From Bacteriovoracales bacterium (GTDB lineage Bacteria; Bdellovibrionota; Bacteriovoracia; Bacteriovoracales; Bacteriovoracaceae), in contig JASBRV010000135.1 of NCBI GenBank assembly GCA_030149295.1, forward strand, positions 62,001-126,000: 64,000 nt of DNA. Direction: 5' to 3'. Below the pieces are notes generated by a model. The model was not told the origin of the DNA and ran no database searches. It was given only the letters and a program-made list of their open reading frames with translations. Shown here piece by piece: positions 4,003 to 29,670 of this stretch (the stretch's first letter is position 1; every line of letters starts with the position of its first letter). The position numbers were made by a program, and so were the translations under genes.

Positions 4003-5346
4003 ATGAAAAGCCTTTTATTTTTATTTCTTAGTATGATTATTTTTCCCTCATTTGCAGAAGAGGGTCTTACCGTAGTCGCTGTAGGTGAAGCAGAAGTTGA
4101 AACTGAGAAAATGGTTTTCGTGGCCACGGAGCTTCCGAATAACTCAACTCCCGCTGAGAAAAAGCAAATCAACGAATTCCAAAAACTTTTGCAAAACGAC
4201 TTTTCTTTTTATCGACAACTCTTCGATGTCGTTAATTCTTCTGGCTATGAAACAATGGTGGCCAATAGCGATTATTCAAAATTAAAGCTTAAAGGCGTTG
4301 CCTATTTTCTCTCCTCGGAGTATTCGAAAAGCATGAATGGTCAATTGAGTGTTGATCTTAAGCTTCATAGCGTGCGAGAGGAGAAAGTCTTAGAGAAGGT
4401 AAACGTACTTTTTAGTAGCGGAAATTTGCGAGAAAAAGGGCACGAAGCAACAGATCTACTTTATCAAAGGGTCACAGGGAAGGGCTCAATTTTTCGATCT
4501 AAAATTGTCTTTGTGAGTGACCGCGATTCACGTAAAGGAATAGATATTAAAGAGCTATATATCATGGACTTTGATGGTTTTAATAAGAAAAGGCTCACTC
4601 GTCATGAGGGGACTGTTATATCACCGGCTTTTTCTTTTGATGGTAAAAAGGTTCTTTATAGTTTGATTAAAAATAGTCGCTCTAAATACAGAAATGTAAA
4701 CCTCTACCTCATGGATATCGAAACAGGAAAAACGAGAATTCTTTCTAAGAAAAAAGGAATTAACTCTGGTGCTGTCTTTATGCCGGATGGAGATCATATT
4801 GCTCTCACGATGTCCCATGAAGGCAATGCAGAGATTTATGCTCTCAACGTAAATACGGGAAAAACGCGAAGGATCACAAAGCACTTCGCACCGGATGTCG
4901 ACCCGTCAATCAATGTCTCGGGCACCAAAATGGCCTTTCTTTCAGGACGCTCAGGTACCGGAAGGCCCATGATTTACATAGCTGATCCAAGAGACCTTGA
5001 AAAAAGTGTCAAAAGAATTAGCTATGTCGGAAAGTATAACGCTACCCCTCGCTTCTCTCCGGATGGTTCTCAGATCGCCTTCTCAAGCTGGTTAGATAAC
5101 CGTTTTGATATTTTCAGGGTTGATGATAATGGGGATAATCTTTATCGGCTCACAAAGGATTTTGGCTCAAATGAGGACCCAACCTATTCAAATGATGGAC
5201 AGTTTATCGCTTTTTCAAGCCAAAGGGTCCTCTCAAGGACCAAAGCTGTTCAAAATATATACATAATGAATGCTGATGGGGAGATTTTAGGCCGCCTCAC
5301 AGAAAACTATGGAAATTGTTCAACTCCTAGATGGTCTAAGTACTAA
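4003..5346 (+). CDS. tolB: TolB, periplasmic beta-propeller of the Tol-Pal system
   Basis: 447 residues, the family length. A signal peptide (1-18) precedes an N-terminal alpha/beta domain (about 20-155), then a six-bladed WD40/PD40-type propeller with repeated F-S-x-DG motifs (SFDGKKVLYS, SPDGSQIAFSSW, SNDGQFIAFSSQ). TolB cycles between Pal and TolA in the periplasm. It starts 8 bases after tolA. No pal or cpoB follows; the next gene is a regulator, so Pal must be encoded elsewhere if present. Confidence 0.95.
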   Translation: MKSLLFLFLSMIIFPSFAEEGLTVVAVGEAEVETEKMVFVATELPNNSTPAEKKQINEFQKLLQNDFSFYRQLFDVVNSSGYETMVANSDYSKLKLKGVAYFLSSEYSKSMNGQLSVDLKLHSVREEKVLEKVNVLFSSGNLREKGHEATDLLYQRVTGKGSIFRSKIVFVSDRDSRKGIDIKELYIMDFDGFNKKRLTRHEGTVISPAFSFDGKKVLYSLIKNSRSKYRNVNLYLMDIETGKTRILSKKKGINSGAVFMPDGDHIALTMSHEGNAEIYALNVNTGKTRRITKHFAPDVDPSINVSGTKMAFLSGRSGTGRPMIYIADPRDLEKSVKRISYVGKYNATPRFSPDGSQIAFSSWLDNRFDIFRVDDNGDNLYRLTKDFGSNEDPTYSNDGQFIAFSSQRVLSRTKAVQNIYIMNADGEILGRLTENYGNCSTPRWSKY

Positions 5347-22121: not shown

Positions 22122-23336
22122 ATGGAGCGCCTGATTTCACTTGTTGGTCTCCTCGTCATGGTAGGCATAGCCTTTCTATGTAGTGATAATAAAAAGAAAA
22201 TCAATTGGAAGACAGTCGGATCTGGTCTTGCTCTTCAAGTAACCCTTGGGCTTGTCATCTTAAAAACTGACGCTGGCCAAGCCGTTTTTGAAGGAGCTCG
22301 TGCTTTTTTTACGGGCATACTTGCTTATACCAATGAGGGATCAAAATTTATTTTTGGAAGCCTTATGGAGACCAATCGCTTTGGTTTCATTTTCTTTGTC
22401 ATGGTTCTACCTACTATTATTTTCATGAGCTCACTTATGAGCATTCTGTATCACATTGGTGTCATGCAGATTGTGATTAAGGCGACTGCTAAAGTTATGG
22501 TGAAAATTATGGGCACTTCTGGTGCCGAATCTCTTTCGGCAGCGGCCAATATCTTTGCCGGTCAAACAGAAGCCCCCCTCGTGGTAAAGCCTTTTATATC
22601 GGCTATGACTCGCTCTGAACTGATGGCCCTTATGACTGGAGGGATGGCAACGGTTGCCGGGGGAGTGCTTGCTGCTTACGTTGGGATGGGAATTGATGCC
22701 GGTCACCTATTGGCAGCTTCGGTGATGTCCGCCCCTGCCGCTTTGGTGTGTGCCAAACTCTTAGTCCCAGAAGTGTCTCAATCTAAAACTGAAGGGGATG
22801 TAAAGCTAGAACTTCCCAACACTACCGCAAATCTTATCGATGCCGCTGCCAATGGCGCCGCAGAAGGGGTTCGTTTAGCCATCAATGTTGGGGCGATGCT
22901 CTTAGCCTTTATTGCTTTAATTGCTTTAGTTAATGGAACTCTTGGCTGGGCAGGTGGTCTTGTTGGTTATCCTCAGCTTTCCCTAGAGCTCGTGACAGGA
23001 TATCTCTTTAGTCCTGTGGCTTTTTTGATGGGTGTTCCTTGGGAAGACGCCTTTAATGTGGGCACTCTTTTAGGAAAAAAGCTCATCATCAATGAATTTG
23101 TGGCCTATCTTGATCTTCAAGCAATGATTCCTAATCTGTCAGAGAGATCGGTTGTGATTTCTACCTATGCTCTATGTGGCTTTGCTAACTTTAGCTCGAT
23201 CGCTATTCAAGTTGGTGGAATTGGTACCATTGCACCAGATCGAAGACAAGACTTAGCTCTTTTGGGAATGAAATCCCTTATTGGGGGAACTTTGGCGTGT
23301 CTTATGACCGCTTGTATTGCAGGGATTTTTATTTAA
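22122..23336 (+). CDS. nupC: Concentrative nucleoside transporter NupC (CNT family)
   Basis: 404 residues with about ten membrane segments. CNT landmarks are NIFAGQTEAPLVVKP (substrate helix hairpin), MTRSELMALMTGGMATVAGG, VLAAYVGMG and the late GTLLGKKLIINEFVAY plus CGFANFSSIAIQ. It imports nucleosides with H+ or Na+. Together with the adjacent purine and pyrimidine phosphorylases it makes a complete uptake-and-cleavage route, as expected for a bacterium that digests prey nucleic acids (inference). It ends 13 bases from the convergent receptor gene. Confidence 0.95.
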   Translation: MERLISLVGLLVMVGIAFLCSDNKKKINWKTVGSGLALQVTLGLVILKTDAGQAVFEGARAFFTGILAYTNEGSKFIFGSLMETNRFGFIFFVMVLPTIIFMSSLMSILYHIGVMQIVIKATAKVMVKIMGTSGAESLSAAANIFAGQTEAPLVVKPFISAMTRSELMALMTGGMATVAGGVLAAYVGMGIDAGHLLAASVMSAPAALVCAKLLVPEVSQSKTEGDVKLELPNTTANLIDAAANGAAEGVRLAINVGAMLLAFIALIALVNGTLGWAGGLVGYPQLSLELVTGYLFSPVAFLMGVPWEDAFNVGTLLGKKLIINEFVAYLDLQAMIPNLSERSVVISTYALCGFANFSSIAIQVGGIGTIAPDRRQDLALLGMKSLIGGTLACLMTACIAGIFI

Positions 23337-23348
23337 GATCGATAGATT

Positions 23349-25493
23349 TTAAAATTTATAATCGAGCGCAAGTTGGACTTGGCGACCAGCATTTGGTCCC
23401 CACGTATGGAGGCCATCGAAATGGGCATGGTTAAAGTGCCAGTGCCAAGTCGAGGGAGAATCCCCTGCACTTGTTTGGGTGTAATCAAAGACATTTAAAA
23501 TCGAAAGATCAAAAGTGAGAGATTCATTCCATTTATAAGAAAGACCGAGATCAACTTGGGCAAACCAGGGGGCTCTTTGATCTTTCTTTTCAAGACTTGA
23601 ATCGAGAACTGGTTCTAAACTTTGATTTCTATTCACGTAATGATCATAATAGCGACCATAGCGAGAAATATCTCGGCCTGGAACAACTTGAATATTAACT
23701 GTATTGCCCCAGCGTCCATAATCAAAATCAGATCTAAGGGAAATTCGCTTTTCAATTGCTGCTGTTGGGAGCCTTCGAGTGTAGTCATTTTGGTACTCGA
23801 AAACTTCAAAGCTTGTCTCCAACAACCACCATTCTTTAGGTTTATACCCTAAGAGAAGGTCCGCGACGATAATATCAAAGTCTTCATTACTGCTGCGATA
23901 GCGGATGGGTTGATTGAATTCTTCAAAACCAAAGGCCATATTATCAAGATGTGTGTAATGAACGCCACCCGTTACATAACCTTTAGGCGTATTGTAGCTG
24001 AGGCTATAAACAAAACTATGGGCTTTTTCTAAGCGAGTGATGTCGATTTCATAGCCATTTTCCTCATTACCATGAGCGGATTCAAAGAAAGTTAGCGGGG
24101 CTCGATAACCAAGACCATAAGAAAAACGTTGAGTGAGATGGTCATTAAATCGGTGTAAAAAAAGAAAGCGAGGAGCCAATATCCATTCTTGAATTTCATT
24201 GGTGAGTTCTAGCCAATTGATGTCCACTCGATCAGCTCTCAAGGCAAGGGAAAGGTCAATATTGTCACCAAACCAGTTGAGACCAAGATAACCAGCAGTA
24301 GAAAGATAATCAAAATTATCTTTGGCTATGTCATTGGGATCACTAGGAGCATAACGCTCAAAAAGTGCCTGAGAAGCTGAGCGCAGCCTTTCATCTTTAG
24401 CAAAAAGACCTGCTTTAATACTTAAGTCTTCTTTTAAATAATGCTCAATCGAAATATCGCCGACAAAGGCATTATCGATATGAGCATAATCAAATCCATG
24501 TTGATATATCGCTTCTTGGTTTTGACGAGCATAACCTGCTTTCGTATAGAGAGTTGTGTTCTCATTGATTAAGCGGGTGTGATTAGCAGATACTTCTGTC
24601 CTTTTTAAACTCACCCAATCGGTAATCTTAAAGGGATCACCAATGAATGGTTTTTCAACCGAGCCATCCACAAAGTCGCTTTGACCGGCAGCAACTGGTC
24701 TGACTTGAGTGGGCCTTGATGGGTTTCGAAATCCACCAAGAATTTCAAGCTCAGAGTGGCCAATTCTCACACTGAGGTCATCCTTTTCACTAAAGAGCCA
24801 GCGTCCTTTTGCTAAAAGGCTCATGCCTTCACGTTGGGGAAGTTCTGCGACATTGTTATTATCTTCATCCCAAGTTTCATTTCGGTGAAAACTTCCGCCA
24901 ATAACAAATCCAAGACTCTTCTCTTTATTCTTTTTTCCCCACAGGACATTATAGTTTTGTGACTGACGAGAACCACCATCATTGACTCCAAAAGAAGTTT
25001 TTAATTTATTCTCAGCATCCAGGGGATTTACAGTGATGAGGTTTAAAGTTCCACCGATGGCTTCAGGATTGGTGAGAGAAGCCCCTGAGCCCCTCATGAC
25101 TTCAACTTCAGAAAGGCCAAGAAGAGGCACACTGTCCACTCCATAAAAACTTGAAACTGCGGAATGAAGGGGAAGACCATCGATGAGGATAGAGGTGTGT
25201 TCGCCTTTTAAGCCATTAATGGTTAAACGTTTTGCACCGCAGTTGGCACAATAAACTTGGGTGTCCACACCAACTTGATCTTTGACGAGATCTGCAAGAG
25301 TTTGGTTGGAAGCATCATTGATTTTTTCTTGAGAAACCCTTTCTACCTTAAACATTCGAAGCGGGTTGATTGGATTTTGTGCTTTCTTTTCTTCAATGAG
25401 AATTTCTCCTGTCGAGTACGATTGAGCCAAAAGCACTCGACAGAAGAATAGAAAAATAAAGGAAAATGTAATTTTTTTCTTAATCGTGGTCAT
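23349..25493 (-). CDS. TonB-dependent outer-membrane receptor, probable metal or metallophore uptake
   Basis: 714 residues from the ATG at 25493, chosen because it is followed by a proper signal peptide (ITFSFIFLFFCRVLLAQ). In-frame starts further upstream (to 25559) only read the upstream His-Asp repeat out of frame. Plug domain about 35-165 with YCANCGAKRLTINGLKG and ILIDGLPLHS; the rest is a 22-strand barrel ending in Phe (QVQLALDYKF). The Cys pair in the plug and the His-rich C-terminal loop (HWHFNHAHFDGLH) suggest metal handling. It overlaps the His-rich lipoprotein gene by 14 bases, with no ribosome site, so it relies on coupling. The substrate is not determined. Confidence 0.9.
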   Translation of the reverse strand: MTTIKKKITFSFIFLFFCRVLLAQSYSTGEILIEEKKAQNPINPLRMFKVERVSQEKINDASNQTLADLVKDQVGVDTQVYCANCGAKRLTINGLKGEHTSILIDGLPLHSAVSSFYGVDSVPLLGLSEVEVMRGSGASLTNPEAIGGTLNLITVNPLDAENKLKTSFGVNDGGSRQSQNYNVLWGKKNKEKSLGFVIGGSFHRNETWDEDNNNVAELPQREGMSLLAKGRWLFSEKDDLSVRIGHSELEILGGFRNPSRPTQVRPVAAGQSDFVDGSVEKPFIGDPFKITDWVSLKRTEVSANHTRLINENTTLYTKAGYARQNQEAIYQHGFDYAHIDNAFVGDISIEHYLKEDLSIKAGLFAKDERLRSASQALFERYAPSDPNDIAKDNFDYLSTAGYLGLNWFGDNIDLSLALRADRVDINWLELTNEIQEWILAPRFLFLHRFNDHLTQRFSYGLGYRAPLTFFESAHGNEENGYEIDITRLEKAHSFVYSLSYNTPKGYVTGGVHYTHLDNMAFGFEEFNQPIRYRSSNEDFDIIVADLLLGYKPKEWWLLETSFEVFEYQNDYTRRLPTAAIEKRISLRSDFDYGRWGNTVNIQVVPGRDISRYGRYYDHYVNRNQSLEPVLDSSLEKKDQRAPWFAQVDLGLSYKWNESLTFDLSILNVFDYTQTSAGDSPSTWHWHFNHAHFDGLHTWGPNAGRQVQLALDYKF

Positions 25494-26205
25494 GGTTGTG
25501 ATCATGGTCGTGGTCATGATCGTCGTCGTGGTCATGGTCATCATCGTGATCATGTTCACCTAGTTCAAAAGTCACTTTTTTTACTTCAATTAAATTAAGT
25601 CCAATACAACCAGAGGCATCATAGTGACCTGCATGGGCAAGTTTAAAAATAGCTCGGCCAATTTGATTGAGGGTCGATGAATAAGCGGCGAACTGAGAAG
25701 GGTCGGCCACCACTTCCTCTACAGCTTCTTCAAAGTTTTCAAAATTGCCTGCATTTAAATCAATTCGCAAAGAGTAGATAAGTTCACCTTGAGCTTCATA
25801 GGTAGGAAGAAGATTAAGGTCAACATCAGTCGCTTCATGCACAAGAGCGCCACCTAAAACAAGATTTCCTTGAGTTGCTGTGATGTCAGCATAAGTGTTT
25901 TGACCAAGATCATAGCGATAGGCATTTGTTTCAATCGCAGGAAGAGCTTCTCCGTGAAGAACATAATCAAGCTTAGTAAGGAATACATGCTTTCCATTTT
26001 CTTCTTTAATAGAAAGACTGAGTCCGCAGCCTTTACCGAAGAAATCAGAGCCTTTATAGATAAGTGCGTTCACTGTCTCATCTTGTGTTGGTTGTTGAGA
26101 ATCAAGGCCTACAAAGCTGGAAATGGGTCCAACAACAGAGCTGGGTTCCTCTGCACATCCAGTGAAAGAAAAAAGACACAGTGTGCCAATTAAGATATTT
26201 TTCAT
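25480..26205 (-). CDS. Lipoprotein with His/Asp-rich metal-binding tail
   Basis: 241 residues. The lipobox FTGC (Cys16) marks a lipoprotein. The body (about 30-215) is beta-rich and unrecognised, with Cys pairs. The last 25 residues are a His-Asp repeat (HDHDDDHDHDDDH and so on, then HNHDHD), a typical multi-site binder of Zn, Ni, Co or Cu. It is the first gene of an operon with the TonB-dependent receptor and is divergent from tonB. It may buffer or hand metal to the receptor. A GGAGGAAG ribosome site precedes the ATG. Confidence 0.85.
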   Translation of the reverse strand: MKNILIGTLCLFSFTGCAEEPSSVVGPISSFVGLDSQQPTQDETVNALIYKGSDFFGKGCGLSLSIKEENGKHVFLTKLDYVLHGEALPAIETNAYRYDLGQNTYADITATQGNLVLGGALVHEATDVDLNLLPTYEAQGELIYSLRIDLNAGNFENFEEAVEEVVADPSQFAAYSSTLNQIGRAIFKLAHAGHYDASGCIGLNLIEVKKVTFELGEHDHDDDHDHDDDHDHDHDHNHDHD

Positions 26206-26223
26206 GCTTCCTCCTAAAGGTTT

Positions 26224-26275
26224 ACTTGCAACTCACTTGCAGGTAATATAAGAATGGCTCAATGCTCTTGCAAGT
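26224..26275. promoter_or_regulatory. Divergent promoter/operator region of the metal locus
   Basis: On the minus strand a -35 TTGCAA (plus 26268-26273) and -10 TATATT (plus 26245-26250) are 17 bases apart. The -35 is buried in the palindrome CTTGCAAG (26267-26274). Two further ACTTGCA copies lie downstream of the -10 at 26224-26230 and 26235-26241, 11 bases apart. This arrangement suggests repressor control of the lipoprotein-receptor operon and perhaps of tonB. Confidence 0.6.
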
Positions 26276-26294
26276 TATTTTTTAAGGAATGTAG

Positions 26295-26900
26295 GTGTTT
26301 CGTATAGGTTTTATCATTAGTTTAGCCCTTCACCTTCTTGTCTTTGGATGGGGGTTACTATGGTTAAAAAATCATGAAGACATTAAACAAGTTTTTCAAA
26401 AGGAAAGTCATCACCACCACGGTGAGGTTTTTAAAGTCACCTTGAAAATCAAGGAAGAGAGAATTCCTGAAATTCAAAAAGTCATTGAAAAGAAACTTAA
26501 ACGAGAAAAAGCAAAGAAGGGAAGAACAGTCGTAAAAAAGGCGACTTCTCAAAAAAGAGCCCTTGTCAAAAAATCTATTGCTCAACAAAAAAAAGAAGAG
26601 AGATTGGGAAAAGAAGAGCTTGAAGCTTACATCATGGAGCTTCGCCATTTCATTGAAAAGAAGAAGTTTTACCCTCGCAAAGCTGCGCGCCTTAAGCAGA
26701 CAGGTGAAGTTGAAATAGATATTGAAATCGACCAGCTTGGTCACTTTGTCAGTGTTGATATTAAGCGCGCTTCCCGTTTTTCTTCTTTAAACCGGGCCGC
26801 CTTGAGGCTCGCTAAAGAGATCTCAAAGTTTAAGCCTCTCCCTCAAAAGATGGGTGACAAAATCACCTTAAGTGTTCCCCTTAAATATCAAATAAAATGA
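26295..26900 (+). CDS. tonB: TonB-family energy transducer with His cluster
   Basis: 201 residues from a GTG start with AAGGA 6 bases upstream. N-terminal membrane anchor about 4-23; HHHH at about 39-42 in the periplasmic part; a basic Lys/Glu-rich spacer to about 110; a C-terminal TonB domain with YPRKAARLKQTGEVEIDIEID and FKPLPQ. It should energise the divergent receptor. The His cluster next to the membrane is unusual and matches the metal theme of the locus. No exbB/exbD copy is adjacent, so it may use those encoded elsewhere or TolQR. Confidence 0.85.
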   Translation: MFRIGFIISLALHLLVFGWGLLWLKNHEDIKQVFQKESHHHHGEVFKVTLKIKEERIPEIQKVIEKKLKREKAKKGRTVVKKATSQKRALVKKSIAQQKKEERLGKEELEAYIMELRHFIEKKKFYPRKAARLKQTGEVEIDIEIDQLGHFVSVDIKRASRFSSLNRAALRLAKEISKFKPLPQKMGDKITLSVPLKYQIK

Positions 26901-27340
26901 GAGCCTTCCTTTTTTGTCTTATCATTTTAAGTAGCGAAAGTTGTTTCGCCTTTTCTATAAGGTCCCTTTGGGAATATAAGAGCTTCGAGTTTAGCTCTCT
27001 GAGCAAAGGGAAAACGATTTGGATTTTATACCGGCCTGATTGTTCGTCTTGTCTTTATCAATTCAAAGAGCTCAAATGTTTTAAAAGACTAGACCAGTTT
27101 AGAGTGGTTGGTTTTGGGGGAAATGAGAAACGGCTTAAAGACGAGAGTCGTCATTTTGAAAATCTTGAAAAAATTCAAAAAAATAACGCTAGCCCTTTTT
27201 ATGGAGACAAAGAAGTTCTTAAAAACCTAGGGGTCGACAAAGACCTTTCCCCTCAGATTCTCATTTATGAGAACCAAAAGAAGATTGTCCATCATATTGG
27301 TGCTCTAAAGTGCTCTCAGCTGCAAAAAATGGCCGACTGA
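26897..27340 (+). CDS. Exported thioredoxin-fold protein with CxxC
   Basis: 147 residues. A signal peptide (1-18) precedes a thioredoxin-like fold with DCSSC (Cys49, Cys52) after a beta strand WILYRPD, in the place of the usual WCxxC. It overlaps tonB by 4 bases (ATGA) and so is translated with it. A role in keeping Cys residues of the receptor plug or of a metal carrier reduced is an inference; it could also be an AhpC/TSA-like redox protein. The family assignment is moderate. Confidence 0.72.
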   Translation: MRAFLFCLIILSSESCFAFSIRSLWEYKSFEFSSLSKGKTIWILYRPDCSSCLYQFKELKCFKRLDQFRVVGFGGNEKRLKDESRHFENLEKIQKNNASPFYGDKEVLKNLGVDKDLSPQILIYENQKKIVHHIGALKCSQLQKMAD

Positions 27341-29013: not shown

Positions 29014-29670
29014 TCAGTGGCCGTGGTCATGGTGATCACCACCTTTATGATCTTCTTCATTTGGTTTGTCACCGAGACCACCATCCATTTGTAGGATGCC
29101 TTTTTTAATATTTTCAAAATAATCTTCGCCTCTTTTCTTATGCTCGAGCACCTGTTTCGCTATTCTGATTAACGCCGGGTCTTTAGCCTTAGAGATAATC
29201 GATTCAAGAAAGCTCCTTGATTGAGGGTAATCAAGTTCGTTGATTCTCTTAATAGCATAAACACGAAGAGAGGCTTCTTTTTGGAGAAGGTTTGCTTTGT
29301 AACTATTATGCTCGTGAGCTTCGGGATCATTGATGAGGTCATTTTCGGAATTGATAAAAACCACAAGAGAATCAAGATTTTTTGCTCCTCTGTCACTTGA
29401 AGGATTGAGATCGAGATCTTTAACAAGATAAACTCGCTCCTGAGGGCTTATTTTTCTGTCTATTAGCTTGTCACTTAAACCCTGAGGAGCACTGGTGGTG
29501 TTTTGCTTCCCTTTGGGCTTATCCATGTCCAACGGGAGGTCTATGGATGAGGGTTGCTCACTCATCTCTTTTTGTTTGGTCCTGTTTTGAGGGGAGTCTT
29601 TCTGAAAGAAAAAAAATAGACCAACACTTAAAAGAATGAGACCCCCTATCGGGATGATTTTTTTAAGCAT
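29014..29670 (-). CDS. Membrane-anchored periplasmic protein with His-rich C-terminus, unknown
   Basis: 218 residues. One N-terminal membrane helix (about 5-22) anchors a soluble domain on the outer side of the inner membrane. The middle (about 70-190) looks like helical-repeat material (short amphipathic helices, HEAT-like). The C-terminus ends GGDHHDHGH, a second His-rich tail in this window and a possible metal ligand. It lies 11 bases after the protease gene on the same strand and is convergent to rng. No family is recognised. Confidence 0.7.
   Translation of the reverse strand: MLKKIIPIGGLILLSVGLFFFFQKDSPQNRTKQKEMSEQPSSIDLPLDMDKPKGKQNTTSAPQGLSDKLIDRKISPQERVYLVKDLDLNPSSDRGAKNLDSLVVFINSENDLINDPEAHEHNSYKANLLQKEASLRVYAIKRINELDYPQSRSFLESIISKAKDPALIRIAKQVLEHKKRGEDYFENIKKGILQMDGGLGDKPNEEDHKGGDHHDHGH

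Follow-up and report, generated by a model that had tools for sequence, protein, structure and literature searches.

Uptake of zinc across the outer membrane is known from few receptors, namely, ZnuD and the Caulobacter proteins ZnuK and ZnuL. A CxxC-bearing receptor paired with a thioredoxin under the control of MntR was published for Stenotrophomonas in May 2026 (PMC13217887). Here, we describe a locus in a 64-kb window (the whole stretch of DNA analyzed; positions 62001-126000 of contig C12 in genome G000, a Bacteriovoracales assembly of 4.0 Mb in 140 contigs) that encodes a TonB-dependent receptor with a CxxC motif in its plug, an exported thioredoxin-like protein, a TonB, and a lipoprotein with a His/Asp-rich tail. 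Its sequence makes it probable that the locus is a Zur-type-controlled cassette for zinc scavenging at the outer membrane. Outer-membrane metal scavenging had already been proposed in a preliminary description of this DNA and is well supported, with the linkage of the genes kept in relatives.

The four genes and the operator-bearing divergent promoter all lie where that description had placed them, as do the His/Asp tail of the lipoprotein, the CxxC of the receptor plug, the His-rich last loop of the receptor, and the HHHH of the TonB. They are arranged as two divergent pairs, with the lipoprotein and receptor genes on the minus strand and tonB and the thioredoxin-like gene on the plus strand. 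The genes of each pair overlap, by 14 nucleotides (nt) between lipoprotein stop and receptor start and by 4 nt between tonB and the thioredoxin-like gene, which suggests that each pair is translationally coupled. The open frame of the receptor spans 23349-25559, and the ATG at 25493 is its likely start; the upstream part of the frame is the lipoprotein tail repeat in another reading frame. The receptor passes the Pfam cut-offs for both the Plug domain (57.3 bits; cut-off, 23.9) and the barrel (42.9 bits; cut-off, 27) and has WHWHFNHAHFDGLHTWGP at its C terminus. Both plug cysteines and five His and Asp residues of the last loop are invariant in all 13 aligned receptors, which argues that these features are beyond chance.

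To place the locus among its relatives, contigs were scanned with the alignment of 13 receptor sequences; 161 relatives were found, and the best 80 were kept, giving 79 loci (some of which, e.g., L029 and L059, duplicate genomes of the G series). On the basis of taxon and of the last loop, these fall into 27 loci of the Bdellovibrionota type and 52 others, the CS[MI]CG clade. Neighbors were counted within 4 kb, and the counts are lower bounds, with several contigs ending inside the cassette. The preliminary description had proposed a comparison of neighborhoods, in which relatives do keep the genes together: a thioredoxin-like gene is present at 22 of the 27 Bdellovibrionota-type loci, an exported partner at 20, a TonB at 17, and all three at 13, and the combination is conserved among relatives of this receptor type. 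A Fur-family gene is present at 9 of the 27, and MerC-family and COG0523 genes at 1 each. The C-terminal HxHxDxxH motif occurs at 24 of the 27 loci versus 0/52 in the other clade; two of the three loci without it are truncated, and the third, L070, has a variant of it.

Among the best 80 of the 161 relatives, the closest named one is from an uncultured Bacteriovoracaceae bacterium (74% identity to the receptor). The receptor as a query (E value, 1e-20) gave matches in 14/144 relatives and the lipoprotein body in 7/144, the host genome counted in both cases. The cassette is missing from G003, which is of the same genus as the host and 98% complete. Its flanks vary once past the nearest relative; NupC, deoA, and RNase G were rejected as cassette parts since they flank it only in the host and the closest relative. 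The cassette adjoins nucleoside-uptake genes in two unrelated settings, perhaps by chance: NupC here (window 22122-23336) and, in f3 genomes (L051 and L053), a BMP-type-looking binding protein with ABC genes, named by eye.

The 147-amino-acid (aa) exported protein has no Pfam match. Its predicted structure (mean predicted local distance difference test [pLDDT] score, 89.9) matches ResA at an E value of 1.6e-7, giving it a ResA/TlpA-type thioredoxin fold, and its CxxC and cis-proline (C49, C52, and P119) are invariant in 19/19 thioredoxin-like proteins. It can reasonably be inferred that this protein keeps the cysteines of the receptor plug reduced; thioredoxin action on receptor cysteines was proposed independently for the Stenotrophomonas pair (PMC13217887). 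In the TonB, SHHHHGE follows the membrane helix. The HHHH was rejected as a functional feature, since it is not conserved, being absent from the TonB proteins of the 10 relatives compared, the closest of which has HAHHG.

The lipoprotein has a lipobox-like start and ends in EHDHDDDHDHDDDHDHDHDHNHDHD, a stretch of 25 residues with 10 His. An Ala occupies position +2 relative to the lipobox Cys; under the sorting rule of E. coli, this would put the protein in the outer membrane. The tail varies among relatives and is absent in some (e.g., L062); the partner proteins keep the small beta-barrel body, whose signature is C...HxxH...C, and G52, H194, and C200 are invariant in 16 aligned exported partners. 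The predicted structure of the lipoprotein (mean pLDDT, 90.0) had no match in the PDB at an E value of 0.001. The best VIA-align Z score, 6.6 to a factor-H-binding-protein barrel, lies within the range of common arrangements, and no family is claimed. Shorter exported partners occupy the same position with the same signature. Those of type B (L075-L078, L080, L082-L084, L086, and L135) aligned with the lipoprotein body at hhalign probabilities of 59.6% (local) and 83.1% (global), mainly over the C-terminal HxxH...C stretch, and those of L071, L072, and L074 at no more than 2.5%; homology to the lipoprotein body is probable for type B only. It is plausible that the lipoprotein acts as a metal buffer.

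Further His-rich frames were seen. Additional exported ones adjoin the cassette at L032:8189-8818 (G006) and L049:2485-3027 (G131). In G098, L034:5314-6099 encodes a protein homologous to the lipoprotein body and His-rich at its end, with no receptor of the cassette type adjoining. The window itself contains at 29014-29670, on the minus strand, a membrane-anchored open frame of 218 aa with the His-rich tail EDHKGGDHHDHGH and without a Pfam or NCBIfam match.

The evidence on the metal comes chiefly from the operator, which has a 15-bp frame, TGCAA-N5-TTGCA, with TGCAANTNANTTGCA as its stricter form. In 16 genomes (about 50 Mb), the exact TGCAANTNANTTGCA occurs at 7 places versus 0 for the reversed pattern. 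Two of these are at the cassette (G000 and G002), three at ZnuD-type receptors (G002, G003, and G067), one at a MerC-family gene (G000), and one in G131. Of the 16 genomes searched, 4 (the host not among them) gave a ZnuD homologue, and in each the box lies upstream of it (3 exact and 1 with one mismatch); the G067 receptor (L158), the one tested, matched ZnuD (4rdr) at an E value of 1.3e-37, with Cir next at 9e-14. The operator is thereby common to ZnuD-type receptors of relatives, not to another known zinc gene of the host genome. A Zur box for Desulfovibrio was reportedly predicted in 2004 by Rodionov and colleagues. That prediction assigned ATGCAACNNNGTTGCAT to Zur at znuABC-zur (PMC545781), with the same TGCAA-N5-TTGCA frame as here. 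Because of this shared frame and the occurrence of the operator at ZnuD-type receptors, zinc appears as the best-supported metal of the cassette. The preliminary description had left the choice among Zn, Ni, Co, and Cu open; the shared operator favors the first of these.

The box is also enriched at the cassette. With at most one mismatch, it is present in 13/26 upstream regions of the HxHxD clade versus 1/52 of the other clade, and in 1/780 shuffles of all 78 regions. Counted by gene, 15/70 upstream regions of cassette genes have it versus 13/243 of other frames at the same loci (Fisher P = 1.5e-4, against a background inflated by frames that share one intergenic stretch). One-mismatch boxes elsewhere in the host genome were set aside as mostly chance-like: the loose pattern TGCAANNNNNTTGCA (one mismatch or fewer) occurs there at 91 places versus 38 for the reversed control, and the examined boxes lie inside open frames (L012 and L014) or inside a phage-like region (C30:19776). 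The coordinates of the operator and the other features are collected in Table 1.

Table 1. Features of the cassette, with positions in the window
Feature	Position	Strand	Remarks
CxxC-plug TonB-dependent receptor	23349..25493	-	714 aa from likely ATG at 25493
His-rich last loop of receptor, WHWHFNHAHFDGLHTW	23400..23447	-	H685, H688, H690, D692, H695 invariant 13/13
CANC plug motif of receptor	25239..25250	-	C81, C84 (numbering of 713-aa query); Cys invariant 13/13
Exported lipoprotein, 241 aa, small beta-barrel body, C60 + H191/H194/C200 signature	25480..26205	-	Sequence, model
His/Asp tail of lipoprotein, 25 residues, 10 His	25483..25557	-	Sequence
Operator TGCAACTCACTTGCA (TGCAANTNANTTGCA box, Zur-like)	26227..26241	.	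7-1-7 palindrome, one mismatch
Sigma-70-like promoter of lipoprotein-receptor pair, TTGCAA-17-TATATT	26245..26273	-	Consensus match only; operator just downstream
Second, weaker copy of box region	26260..26278	.	74%-identical direct copy, 31 bp from first
TonB-type energizer, 201 aa	26295..26900	+	TonB_C PF03544, 51.1 bits (cut-off, 24.6)
Exported thioredoxin-fold protein, CSSC + cis-Pro, 147 aa	26897..27340	+	4-nt overlap with tonB

A single Fur-family gene was found in the host genome, on contig C44, and we infer that its product is the protein that would bind the box; the Fur-family genes that adjoin the box and the ZnuD-type receptor in G002 and G003 encode proteins 61% and 68% identical, respectively, to the host's. 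Several observations weigh against control by a Zur-type protein and against zinc. Aligned with the M. tuberculosis Zur chain 2o03, the host Fur-family protein shows Thr at a Cys position of that chain, and its NCBIfam scores (Zur, 41.2 bits; Fur, 53.6 and 45.6 bits) are all below the cut-offs and do not favor Zur over Fur. The box is lacking, at one mismatch or fewer, from 13/26 cassette upstream regions, including that of the nearest relative (L059; two mismatches), and the exact box in G131 (L159) falls inside an open frame, without an assigned target. The receptor family, moreover, is not tied to one metal, as judged from the MntR control in Stenotrophomonas and from Fur-like boxes in 22/52 upstream regions of the related clade.

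That clade shows how the receptor may be regulated elsewhere. A quick tree of 77 receptors (from the 79 loci and the window, with two rows of <550 residues omitted) separates the HxHxD and CS[MI]CG types with full support; it has several long branches, the L068, L069, and L073 receptors are truncated, and the labels do not cluster as a clean split. Fur-like boxes with two mismatches or fewer precede 0/26 HxHxD-clade genes versus the 22/52 of the CS[MI]CG clade (L118, which matches both the TGCAA-like and the Fur-like box, is labeled TGCAA by rule order). The 52 CS[MI]CG loci include a thioredoxin-like gene in 35 cases, TonB in 4, MerC in 1, and COG0523 in 1, with no exported partner of the cassette type and no Fur-family gene within 4 kb (0/52 each). 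L117, L130, L132, and other loci of this clade, from Shewanella and relatives, are receptor-thioredoxin pairs with exact or near Fur boxes. The Pseudoalteromonas rubra receptor locus L133 has an exact match to the gammaproteobacterial Zur consensus. Lineages thus seem to have placed the receptor-thioredoxin pair under different metal regulators, as indicated by the TGCAA and Fur-like box matches and by MntR in Stenotrophomonas; the control is read from box matches and, in the MntR case, from expression data.

The Fur-like boxes of this related clade are one ground for supposing that the cassette takes up iron, heme, or siderophores under Fur and that TGCAA is a lineage-specific Fur box; the sole Fur-family gene found in the host could also be an iron regulator, and the best NCBIfam matches of the receptor, although weak, are heme receptors. 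We nevertheless regard iron as unlikely, since the cassette clade has no Fur-like box upstream, exact TGCAA boxes stand at ZnuD-type receptors and a MerC-family gene, and the Fur-boxed clade is without the His-rich last loop. Uptake of manganese, or of manganese and iron, with the lipoprotein and box as local additions, would follow from the Stenotrophomonas CQNC pair, which has the same architecture of CxxC-plug receptor and syntenic exported CxxC thioredoxin, is MntR controlled, and is induced when Mn and Fe are both low (PMC13217887). This is very unlikely here: the box is common to ZnuD-type receptors, not to Mn genes, and is a 7-1-7 palindrome of the Fur/Zur type; His-rich and thiolate ligands fit Zn better than Mn on general chemical grounds; and no close match to an MntR box was identified in a scan limited to an enterobacterial consensus. 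Scavenging of Cu, Ni, or Co, with the thioredoxin as a TlpA/Sco-like copper helper, is the least credible, since the box points to zinc and no Cu, Ni, or Co genes were recognized in the part of the cassette neighborhoods that was read, even though Cys/His ligands and a TlpA-like fold also serve copper and the fold matches of the thioredoxin-like protein include the TlpA-ScoI complex 4txo.

If the cassette does scavenge zinc, it may work as follows. At low zinc, the Fur-family repressor encoded on C44 would leave the TGCAA box, and both divergent pairs would be expressed. The His-rich last loop of the receptor would capture Zn(II) or a zinc complex and pass it via the CxxC of the plug, which the cassette's own TonB would open. 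Reduction of the plug cysteines would fall to the periplasmic ResA/TlpA-like protein, which may also serve the Cys pair of the lipoprotein. The lipoprotein would take the metal and buffer it, using both the C/H site and the His/Asp tail. More speculatively, zinc may then reach the cytoplasm through an inner-membrane protein of the MerC family whose gene has the same box.

This last step was considered because the MerC-family gene of the host shares the box and because MerC adjoins the cassette in L067 and, in L122, a receptor together with a thioredoxin and COG0523. The host gene (C52; L010:4492-4920) scores 76.9 bits for PF03203 (cut-off, 27.6), with the box at 4971-4985, about 50 bp upstream. 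The host genome has no match to PF01297 (ZnuA) or PF02535 (ZIP) at an E value of 0.001, the two transporter families sought besides MerC; most control genomes did give matches. In the set of 16 genomes, ZnuA was matched in 6 and ZIP in 10, and ZnuA is therefore not absent from the whole group. The search of 39 genomes gave 18 MerC matches, of which 3 have the box immediately upstream (L142 and L150, exact; L138, one mismatch), so its control of MerC is not general. The box-sharing protein is a speculative candidate for an inner-membrane zinc importer.

A broader reading, which we regard as less likely than not, is that the host imports zinc entirely without ZnuABC or ZIP, by means of a CxxC receptor served by a dedicated TonB and reductant, the His/Asp lipoprotein as a relay, and a MerC importer, all under one Zur-type TGCAA box, and that this is one case of a family-wide, redox-serviced metal receptor that lineages brought under Zur-like, Fur, or MntR regulation in step with changes in its last loop. 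A thiol-bearing plug with a dedicated reductant, if true, would be a different mechanism of metal passage, of which the cassette is a compact and testable form with its own energizer and metal relay. Bdellovibrionota would gain a predicted zinc regulon, and MerC-family proteins would be indicated as possible zinc importers.

The preliminary description had not recognized this combination of genes, and its receptor-thioredoxin half has since been described; the four-gene form was not found published. Our literature search, with most subscription journals outside it, returned nothing on that form, on a zinc box in Bdellovibrionota, or on MerC in zinc uptake. Compared with known systems, the receptor is TonB dependent like ZnuD, and ZnuD-type receptors of relatives carry the same box, but against the PDB at an E value of 0.001 it matched Cir and a siderophore receptor and no ZnuD chain. 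The lipoprotein shares with ZrgA a His/Asp-rich tail on an exported protein; its identification as ZrgA was rejected, with NF047873 giving 21.5 bits versus a cut-off of 185 in a match confined to the tail. Within its common frame, the Desulfovibrio Zur box has CNNNG at the inner positions, in contrast to CTCAC here, and targets znuABC-zur, whereas the targets here are receptors and MerC (PMC545781). The CS[MI]CG pairs of Shewanella, Pseudoalteromonas, and Colwellia have a homologous receptor with a CxxCG plug and an adjoining thioredoxin but differ from the cassette in partner, TonB, boxes, and last loop, as counted above. Closest is orf2357-orf2358 of S. maltophilia, encoding a CQNC receptor and a periplasmic thioredoxin-fold protein (pTFP), which is alike in the plug CxxC, the adjacent exported CxxC thioredoxin-fold protein, and the link to metal limitation (PMC13217887). 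The window receptor may also differ from Orf2357 in its His-rich last loop. New here relative to this pair are the TonB of its own, the His/Asp lipoprotein, and, in a divergent layout, a Zur-like TGCAA box in place of the MntR box (PMC13217887).

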